Positions 61,040-63,482 of a stretch of DNA of 64,000 bases are shown here, piece by piece. The notes under the pieces are model-generated. The model ran no database searches and was not told the DNA's origin. It was given only the letters and a program-made list of their open reading frames with translations. Every line of letters starts with the position of its first letter. Position 1 is the first letter of the stretch. The translations under genes were made by a program, and so were the position numbers. Source of the DNA: Chloroflexi bacterium OLB13 (lineage in GTDB: Bacteria > Chloroflexota > Anaerolineae > Aggregatilineales > Phototrophicaceae); contig JZRA01000048.1 of the NCBI GenBank assembly GCA_001567485.1, positions 62,001 through 126,000 on the forward strand, written 5' to 3'.

Positions 61040-61989
61040 ATGACCGTGTGGAGCGCGAGTGCGTTTGTTTTCCCCGGACAGGATCGCAGGTCGTCGGCAT
61101 GGGCGCGGACGTAATCGCGGCCTACCCCACTGCCCGCGCAGTCTTCGAGGAGGCGTCGGACATCCTCGGTTTCGACCTTGCCGCGCTGTGCGCCGATGGC
61201 CCGGACGACGCGCTAAACGACACGATCAATACACAGCCGGCGCTGTACGTGATGGGCGTGGCGCTGCTGCGGTCGCTGCGCGAAGCCCGCCCGGATGCGA
61301 TCCCCGCGCTGGTCGCCGGTCACAGCCTCGGCGAGCTGACGGCGCTGACCGCGGCGGGAGCGTTGGCGTTTGCGGACGGTGTTCGTCTGGTGCGTGAACG
61401 CGGGCGCTTAATGGCCGAGGCCGGCCGTCAGCAGCCGGGCGCGATGGCCGCCATTCTTGGCCTCGACACCGACGCAGTGCGTTCGGTATGCGCACAGGCA
61501 GCACAACAGGCGGGCAGGCCGCTTGTGCTGGCGAATGACAACTGTCCGGGTCAGGTCGTAATCTCCGGTGACGATGCAGCGCTGGAACTCGGCATGACGC
61601 TGGCGAAAGAAGCCGGGGCAAAGCGGGCGATCAAGCTGGCAGTGAGCATCGCCGCGCACAGCCCGCTGATGCAGTCGGCGTCGACTGCCTTCAACGCGGC
61701 TGTCGCGGCCACGCCGTTTGCAGCTCCGTCAACGCCGATCATCGCCAACGTCACAGCGCAGCGGCTTGAAGACGCCGACGCGGTGCGCGCCGAACTTGGG
61801 CAGCAGCTCACGCAGTCGGTGCGCTGGACGGAGTCCGTACAAGCCATGCGCGCCGCGGGTATCATCCAGTTCTACGAGTTCGGGCCAAAGGATGTGCTGT
61901 GCGGCCTCGTCAAACGAATTGATCGCGAGGCTGCTGCCACGCCGATCAACTCGGCCGCGGCGCTGTCGGCGTTAATCGAACGCGTCTGA
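61040..61989 (+). CDS. fabD: Malonyl-CoA:ACP transacylase; single-base frameshift near the start
   Basis: ATG 61040 follows GCGAGGAGC and opens MTVWSASAFVFPGQ; in this frame the text then fails, while the next frame continues as GSQVVGMGADVIAAYPTARA. One more G in CAGGATCG restores the canonical FPGQGSQxVGMG. The joined protein has 316 residues, the normal size. It has the active-site GHSLGELTAL (Ser near 95), GAMAAILGLD, CPGQVVISGDDAA, AHSPLMQSAS and FGPKDVLCGLVKRID. FabD loads malonyl groups on acyl carrier protein for fatty-acid synthesis. Other fab genes are not in the window. A terminator follows. Confidence 0.9.
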
Positions 61990-62068: not shown

Positions 62069-62626
62069 CTAGCTGGCGGCCGTGCTTTCGGTCACCGGTT
62101 CGTTGACGAGGATCAGTTCAGCCTCGATCTCGATCTTGACCTCCTTGCCGACCAGCCAACCACCAGCCTCGAGCGCCATATTCCACGTCAATCCAAAGTC
62201 CTCGCGGTTGAATTTGGTGGTGGCTGAGAAGCCAGCGACTGTCTGCCCCGACAGATTGGTGAGCTGGCCGGTCTTCTCGACCTTCAGCGTCACGCTGCGC
62301 GTCACGTCGCGGATCGTCAGGTCGCCCGTCACGACGCCTTCGTCGCCGTCGACGTTCACACTGGTGCTCTTGAACGTAATCGTCGGGTAGTTCTCCGCGT
62401 CAAGGAAGTCCGGGCTAAGCAGATGGTTATCGCGTTGTTCGACGCCGGTGCTCGCCAACGACTTGACGTGGATGGTGGCCTCGACGGACGACGCGTTAGG
62501 GTTTTCGGGATCGTAGATCAGCACGCCGTCGACCTTCTGGAAGTGGCCGCGCACGTTGGTGACCATCATGTGACGGGCGGTGAAACCGGCGGAAGTGTGG
62601 GTCTGGTCGAACTGCCAAACAGCCAT
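62069..62626 (-). CDS. YceI family lipid-binding protein
   Basis: The 185-residue protein is a typical YceI: it begins MAVWQFDQTHTSAGFTARHM, and has GHFQKVDGVLIYDPENPNAS, DNHLLSPDFLDAENYPTITF and GDLTIRDVTRSVTLKVEKTG. The family forms a lipocalin-like barrel that binds isoprenoid chains. There is no signal peptide, so it is probably cytoplasmic. AGGAG precedes the ATG. Its promoter region contains two operator-like palindromes and a TetR-family gene follows upstream, so regulation by that protein is likely. Confidence 0.93.
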   Translation of the reverse strand: MAVWQFDQTHTSAGFTARHMMVTNVRGHFQKVDGVLIYDPENPNASSVEATIHVKSLASTGVEQRDNHLLSPDFLDAENYPTITFKSTSVNVDGDEGVVTGDLTIRDVTRSVTLKVEKTGQLTNLSGQTVAGFSATTKFNREDFGLTWNMALEAGGWLVGKEVKIEIEAELILVNEPVTESTAAS

Positions 62627-62662
62627 GGTTGATGCTCCTGTGGCTACAATGCGGTGTCAAAA

Positions 62663-62676
62663 CGGACTATAGTCCG
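62663..62676. promoter_or_regulatory. Operator-like palindrome 1 (yceI promoter side)
   Basis: CGGACTATAGTCCG is a perfect 14-base palindrome, 37 bases before the yceI start codon. It contains a TATAGT that could serve as a -10 box for yceI. Confidence 0.65.
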
Positions 62677-62737
62677 ATACGCCACGAAGGATAGCACACA
62701 GGCGGCACAAAAGGGCGTTAGAGCTTGCTTAGAAAAG

Positions 62738-62751
62738 CGGACTGTCGTCCG
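62738..62751. promoter_or_regulatory. Operator-like palindrome 2
   Basis: CGGACTGTCGTCCG matches site 1 at 12 of 14 positions and keeps both CGGAC/GTCCG half-sites. The two centres are 75 bases apart, about seven helical turns. Confidence 0.6.
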
Positions 62752-62771
62752 TTTGATAAATCACGAAGACA

Positions 62772-63356
62772 TTATGCGCGGATGCGGTCGACGAGGGTAT
62801 GTAGATTGCGGCGGATGCTCGCCACGTCGTACCCCAGCTGATTGAGTTGAAAATACAAGGTGTGCGCATCAAGCATCATATAGACGGTATCCGCCGCGTA
62901 TGATGCCTCATCCGGCGCGACGCCGGCGGCCACGAACTCGCACGACAAAATGTCACGCCACCACACGCGCGACTGATGACGCAGGCTCGCCCCCGCCGCG
63001 TGATTCGTCGCCTCGCATAATAGGCTGTTGTTGCGCAGAGCATAGTCGAGCGCCTGATCCACGAACCAGTGCAGCGTATCGACCGCTGGCTCACCGCTCT
63101 GGATGCGCTCGGACACCGCCGCGTCGAGCGACTGCGACTCGTGCTGGATCAACGCGAACAGCAGTTCCGATTTATCCGGGAAATGACGGTACAGCGTCCC
63201 CTTGCCGATCTGGGCAGCCTCGGCAATCGCCGACATGGTGACACTACCGACGCCATCCGCGTCAAATAGGCGGCGCGCCGTTTGCAGAATCAACTCGTGA
63301 TTCCGCAGCGCGTCGGAACGCGATTTCCGTTCGTTAGTGGCAGTAACCTCGCTCAT
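62772..63356 (-). CDS. TetR family transcriptional regulator
   Basis: Start ATG 63356 (MSEVTATNERKSRSDALRNH). The N-terminal helix-turn-helix is LFDADGVGSVTMSAIAEAAQ followed by IGKGTLYRHFPDKSELLFAL, a clear TetR pattern. The ligand domain is not recognised. The 194-residue protein is encoded 21 bases from the second of two matching palindromes, which lie between it and yceI; it is likely their ligand-controlled repressor. No copy of the palindrome is upstream of tetR itself, so it may not control its own gene by this route. Confidence 0.92.
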   Translation of the reverse strand: MSEVTATNERKSRSDALRNHELILQTARRLFDADGVGSVTMSAIAEAAQIGKGTLYRHFPDKSELLFALIQHESQSLDAAVSERIQSGEPAVDTLHWFVDQALDYALRNNSLLCEATNHAAGASLRHQSRVWWRDILSCEFVAAGVAPDEASYAADTVYMMLDAHTLYFQLNQLGYDVASIRRNLHTLVDRIRA

Positions 63357-63482
63357 GTCTCTAGTGTACACCGAGTTGTCAACGCCCGATCCCGATGCGA
63401 CCGTGCCGTGTCAAAAAGCTCAACGCAAATCATCGGGACAGGTGGAGTAACGTAATAACAAGCAGTTCCGGGGGATGTCAAA

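Follow-up and report, generated by a model that had tools for sequence, protein, structure and literature searches.

NemR of Escherichia coli is a TetR-type electrophile sensor that controls detoxification genes and acts through a reactive cysteine. A TetR-family repressor adjoining the yceI gene it controls is described in excerpts on Burkholderia xenovorans, where MgxR (Bxe_B3018) lies next to bxe_B3019 and methylglyoxal is the inducer (PMC4349456). In excerpts on Staphylococcus and Bacillus, the MhqR and QsrR/YodB regulons are placed under MarR or DUF24/HxlR regulators with operators near the transcription start. Their targets are a dioxygenase with a carboxylesterase and an FMN/quinone reductase, and mhqE and mhqD, under the MarR-type MhqR, serve quinone resistance (PMC6798810; PMC12893000). 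The ligands of YceI lipocalins are ubiquinone-8 or octaprenyl compounds; as excerpted, the BcnA/YceI lipocalins of Burkholderia use the YceI fold to bind ubiquinone-like molecules, are secreted, and have a cytochrome b561 partner (PMC9113575). When S. aureus is exposed to kendomycin, a quinone methide, a YceI-like protein and an azoreductase both rise (PMC4721675, excerpt). Alpha-mangostin lowers yceI of S. epidermidis (PMC6372523, excerpt), which is uninformative for the present system. The excerpted literature on YceI, TetR, quinone, MhqR, NemR, and QsrR regulation holds no account of the TetR-yceI system reported here.

The window is the whole 64,000-nucleotide stretch of Chloroflexi bacterium OLB13 DNA that was analyzed. 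Its yceI and tetR genes are arranged in tandem on the minus strand with tetR upstream, and two palindromes sit in the gap between them. The features are as follows.

62069..62626, minus strand: yceI, polyisoprenoid/quinone-binding lipocalin-like protein, 185 aa (PF04264 YceI, E 4.9e-51)
62660..62679, minus strand: predicted proximal operator TATCGGACTATAGTCCGTTT, core 62663-62676 (conserved proximal palindrome in relatives)
62688..62693, minus strand: predicted yceI -10 element TATCCT (consensus reading from aligned relatives)
62717..62734, minus strand: direct repeat TTCTAAG-CAAG-CTCTAAC, candidate activator box or UP element (invariant T, T, C, T, A in 35 promoters)
62735..62754, minus strand: predicted distal operator AAACGGACGACAGTCCGCTT, core 62738-62751 (conserved distal palindrome in relatives)
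62772..63371, minus strand: tetR, TetR-family repressor, 199 aa (PF00440 TetR_N, E 7.9e-17; AlphaFold model)

Site 1, CGGACTATAGTCCG (62663-62676), and site 2, CGGACTGTCGTCCG (62738-62751), are identical at 12/14 bases and lie 75 bases apart, start to start. The first-pass annotation had reported these palindromes with this identity, distance, and location, and all were found as described. Site 1 is a perfect palindrome throughout; site 2 has perfect 5-base arms and a non-palindromic center. Arms in a 5-4-5 layout occur at 91 places in the window, and this pair is the only one with the same arm twice within 100 bases. First-order shuffles of the window gave a comparable pair in 3/40 (mean 0.1). 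Within the window by itself, the pair stands out only mildly; it is raised above chance because it is conserved in relatives. A search for the palindrome elsewhere in the genome had also been proposed: CGGAC-N4-GTCCG occurs at seven places, and the five besides this pair all lie within mechanical ORFs. A fabD-like acyltransferase gene at 61048-61989 of the window, which scores 311 bits and exceeds the TIGR00128 cut-off, is convergent with yceI.

The TetR_N helix-turn-helix (PF00440) scores 61.2 bits in TetR against a cut-off of 24, and TetR reaches no NCBIfam equivalog cut-off. The AlphaFold model (mean pLDDT 89.2) has the all-helical two-domain TetR fold. Among the PDB matches listed, TetR-family entries align with Z 14.3-16.0 and rmsd 2.8-3.8 over 161-189 residues; the nearest of those listed are Rv0078, EthR2, and KstR, with ties within 1 Z. 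Residues invariant across 27 TetR sequences include W102, F103, W137, W138, and R139, which, from helix positions only, would fall in ligand-domain helices. No cysteine is invariant among 45 TetR sequences, so a thiol switch is unlikely and was rejected; TetR would share with NemR the class of electrophile sensor controlling detoxification genes, and differs from it in this respect. YceI scores 173.5 bits to PF04264 (cut-off 23.7), falls below the NF002994 equivalog cut-off (116.7 of 232), and has 1wub as its closest solved structure (E 4.3e-35). With no signal peptide visible by eye, YceI here is apparently cytoplasmic.

Compared with these described systems, the locus shares with MgxR a TetR-family repressor next to yceI, and the response of MgxR to an electrophile is counted as a further likeness. 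The MgxR operator, C(T/G)AGAA(T/C)GATC(G/A)TTCT(C/A)C, differs, with no GGAC-N4-GTCC arms by eye, and the other operon genes in the excerpts differ from those here (PMC4349456). The MhqR and QsrR/YodB regulons have the same kinds of targets as the candidate ones in relatives described below, and an operator near the transcription start, as predicted here. Their regulators are MarR or DUF24/HxlR proteins, whereas the regulator here is a TetR; their operator is different, and YceI is not among the targets named in the excerpts (PMC6798810; PMC12893000). The YceI fold is common to BcnA/YceI of Burkholderia, which differ in being secreted (PMC9113575), and no cytochrome b561 partner was noticed next to yceI within the window.

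TetR and YceI proteins were searched in the same 101 genomes, the organism's own and 100 relatives. TetR is present in 53/101 genomes (E 1e-15), and YceI gave 59 hits in 58/101 genomes (E 1e-20). Upstream regions were read for all 59 yceI hits, including L023, L035, and L036. The palindromes are clearly conserved in yceI-tetR relatives. In TetR-positive genomes, at least one exact GGAC-N4-GTCC lies upstream of 49/51 yceI hits and two lie upstream of 43/51; in TetR-negative genomes, none was found in the 400 bases upstream of yceI (0/8). These counts bear out the earlier proposal that the palindromes and TetR belong together with yceI as the target, and, as the relatives share ancestry, they are not independent events. 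Six TetR-positive yceI genes have one exact site (L086, L100, L108, L109, L110, and L113), and the second site of L100 has one mismatch. The two with no site are a second yceI copy in G056 (L123) and a yceI-like sequence with stop codons in G016 (L124). In the aligned promoters of relatives, the arms carry approximately 2 bits per base and the outer flanks near 0 bits.

The sites go with yceI rather than with the tetR gene. tetR adjoins yceI for 32/51 yceI hits in TetR-positive genomes, and 17/49 site-bearing yceI genes lie away from tetR, of which 13 keep both sites. Thirty tetR loci were read; the pair was found in none of the 13 without an adjacent yceI (0/13), one of which, L026, has a single site. 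No operator was found in tetR's own promoter: across the upstream regions of 30 tetR genes, even the closest match has 4 mismatches, and autoregulation through this operator was rejected. The MgxR operator, in contrast, is also present in MgxR's own promoter (PMC4349456, excerpt).

The aligned relatives give an extended operator consensus of AAACGGAC-N4-GTCCGTTT. With at most one mismatch, it was found in 47/53 TetR-positive and 3/48 TetR-negative genomes. The three TetR-negative genomes are G001 (71% complete), G096 (81% complete), and G069, in which the operator falls inside a mechanical ORF. Among the six TetR-positive genomes without the extended operator, G012, G037, and G044 have no yceI hit, and G015, G066, and G083 carry versions with more mismatches. 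A loose double-palindrome pattern matched in 34/400 genomes and, by its matched letters, resembled this promoter in the organism's own genome only. By eye, the loose matches listed were mostly other repeats or coding-looking sequence, and a phylum-wide feature was rejected. A scan of named genomes gave only two distant TetR proteins (L038 and L039), whose loci contain no exact site. Unrelated repeats also turned up: G306, G338, and G373 (L044-L046), which belong to a single genus, contain GGACGGCTGTCCGG-based repeats with 11-15 pair matches each, unrelated to the yceI promoter.

As read from the DNA, the yceI promoter appears to be a new promoter variant, with operators on either side of a direct repeat and a -10 element. 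The repeat has the consensus TTCTAAT-N4-TTCTAAT with an 11-base period. L098 was set aside before counting, its repeat not matching the search expression; a TTCTAA-type repeat begins 2-4 bases after the distal operator in 35/36 standard pairs. A TANNNT -10 follows the repeat at a distance of exactly 40 bases in 31/35 and of 41 in three, including the window, with one unassigned. The first T's of the repeat fall within the extended distal operator. Between the -10 and the proximal operator, the distance is variable, in most cases 10-19 bases. In the window, relative to the predicted start, the proximal operator spans approximately +3 to +22 and the distal operator -72 to -53. The TATAGT box that the first-pass annotation placed in site 1 corresponds to the variable center of the operator, which reads TACAGT, TATCGT, TTGAGT, or TGCAGT in relatives. 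TATAGT was rejected as the -10, its center not being conserved and a TATCCT-like -10 upstream keeping a fixed distance from the repeat.

Operator spacing is 70-83 bases in 39 standard pairs, made up of the 36 above and three more (73-75 in 27 and 73-76 in 29), and 28-41 bases in four genomes (L096, L102, L103, and L115); strict phasing is therefore not required. By eye, L102, L103, and L115 have a consensus TTGACA directly before the second operator, and L103 and L115 also show a degraded repeat. The pattern suggests a repeat that compensates for a weak -35 and a distal operator placed according to the promoter design. An 11-base-period repeat upstream of -35 in fixed register with the -10 could be either an UP element (alpha C-terminal domain site) or an OmpR/PhoB-type activator site, and sequence alone cannot name its binder. 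In a search of 30 genomes, the repeat plus -10 was mostly confined to the yceI promoter, and a wide regulon was rejected. G047 has 17 further promoter-like places with this geometry, and the nine read have no common downstream gene; these extra places slightly favor a general upstream element. The G047 places (L257-L265) carry a TTTC(T/A)AAC...TTTATAAT repeat followed at the same distance by a -10, with a GAAC-like motif in between.

Extra operators in relatives precede an operon encoding a VOC-family dioxygenase-like protein with two PF00903 stretches and a PF02230 carboxylesterase. By analogy, the operon resembles mhqE/mhqD; the carboxylesterase scores 22.8 bits to NCBIfam MhqD, for which the cut-off is 325. 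The VOC protein was matched in 35/101 genomes, and upstream regions were read for 34, leaving out G097 (TetR-negative), whose hit is split in two pieces. An operator with at most two mismatches lies within 180-200 bases upstream of the dioxygenase in 12/28 TetR-positive genomes (G050, G059, G028, G010, G027, G007, G083, G008, G012, G005, G029, and G011) and in 1/6 TetR-negative genomes (G096, 81% complete). The dioxygenase of the other 16/28 TetR-positive genomes has no operator upstream; in G092, excluded from the 12/28, an operator lies further upstream. In G096, the dioxygenase operon is preceded by the same composite of operator, repeat, and -10 at 40 bases, by eye.

Single genes right after an operator encode an FMN reductase (L200), a pirin (L213), and a VOC protein (L218). 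Operators with two mismatches precede genes for an F420/PPOX protein (L203) and a CDGSH/ferredoxin-like protein (L202), and thioesterases lie near the operator at L219. Extra operator places at L208, L214, L217, and L221-L225 have no sensible gene, so some extra operators are due to chance. No VOC/mhqO-like dioxygenase was matched in the organism's own genome, and yceI is thus its only credible target.

In TetR-less relatives, another class of regulator gene is found beside yceI in 4/8 loci read: MarR in L116, L119, and L122, and HxlR, opposite yceI, in L117. These arrangements possibly represent an exchange of regulator class at one target. L116 (1023-1481 and from 3132 on) has the same VOC dioxygenase family after yceI. 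In TetR-less G090, yceI is grouped with a MarR gene and this dioxygenase family. The L116 grouping is taken as independent support for yceI and the dioxygenase answering the same signal. Upstream of yceI in two further TetR-less loci (L120 and L121), a conserved AGTTACT...AGTAACTT-like motif follows TTGACA and is a candidate operator of another regulator.

The explanation that we favor, and judge probable as a whole, is a repressor released by a quinone or electrophile. TetR would bind AAACGGAC-N4-GTCCGTTT at two operators that bracket the yceI promoter. At the proximal operator, just past the predicted start, bound TetR would block RNA polymerase. The distal operator abuts and slightly overlaps the TTCTAAT-type repeat, where TetR would keep off either the alpha C-terminal domains of RNA polymerase or an activator. 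The inducer that releases TetR would most likely be a quinone or a similar electrophile. YceI and, in relatives, products of the mhqE/mhqD-like operon and single redox genes would then be produced and act on the toxic compound by binding, reducing, or opening it. Besides the operator counts and the second targets, the ubiquinone-8 or octaprenyl ligands of YceI lipocalins (PMC9113575), the role of mhqE and mhqD in quinone resistance (PMC6798810), and the kendomycin response of S. aureus (PMC4721675) speak for this explanation. Several points weigh against it: the organism's own genome offers yceI as its only credible site and has no mhqO-like hit; 16/28 TetR-positive genomes with the dioxygenase have no operator there, whereas TetR-negative G096 does; 3/48 TetR-negative genomes carry an extended operator; the relatives share ancestry; TetR has no invariant cysteine; and the other TetR known beside a yceI gene responds to methylglyoxal (PMC4349456).

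Other accounts of the palindromes were weighed against this explanation. That they are functionless chance occurrences is extremely improbable: a comparable pair did arise in 3/40 shuffles of the window, but both sites are conserved in relatives though their flanks have diverged. Binding by another factor, co-occurring with TetR through shared ancestry, is very unlikely. It would accord with a tetR that has no operator itself (30 upstream regions, 4 mismatches at best), yet operator presence follows TetR through gains and losses even inside one family (47/53 against 3/48), and 32/51 yceI hits in TetR-positive genomes adjoin tetR. We also doubt that TetR dimers join sites 70-83 bases apart to form a small loop of DNA and thereby keep the promoter closed. 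A spacing of 73-75 bases in 27/39 standard pairs, about seven DNA turns, is what such a loop would favor. However, the 70-83 range exceeds one turn, the phase resultant reaches only 0.49, the sites of four genomes are 28-41 bases apart, and six genomes have a single exact site; the rigid distance is that from repeat to -10, not from operator to operator.

The nature of the inducer bears on the remaining alternative, in which a lipid or polyisoprenoid releases TetR, with the dioxygenase operon as a side target. In its favor, polyisoprenoids are ligands of YceI family proteins, with 1wub as the closest structure, and KstR and FadR are among the many TetR proteins that the TetR model resembles, a likeness that is not specific. 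Against this stand the second targets, in which a dioxygenase with a carboxylesterase, a reductase, and a pirin are found and no lipid-synthesis gene recurs, and TetR-less G090, which groups yceI with a MarR gene and this dioxygenase family. We consider a lipid inducer unlikely, and the lipid-like ligand suggested by the first-pass annotation is unsupported. The other operator targets (dioxygenase/carboxylesterase, flavin/quinone reductase, and pirin) point instead to quinone or electrophile stress. Repression by TetR with induction by a quinone or electrophile is the likeliest reading.

Taken from the genomes compared, the TetR regulon appears real, with yceI as its main target and a dual-operator promoter, and very probably constitutes a stress-response switch that is fairly ordinary apart from its unusual promoter layout. 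More tentatively, and with less confidence than in the mechanism above, it may be a quinone/electrophile regulon whose core is a cytoplasmic YceI active in detoxification or quinone carrying. That reading would include order-wide exchange with MarR/HxlR regulators and a fusion of operator and activator repeat that would set repressor and activator in competition for overlapping DNA. TetR, its operator, and the candidate inducers form a defined sensor part that can be tested in the laboratory. YceI proteins are widespread and their job is unclear; a repressor shared with quinone-detoxification genes, together with the possible swap of regulator class at yceI, provides an independent and testable argument that they function in quinone/electrophile defense.
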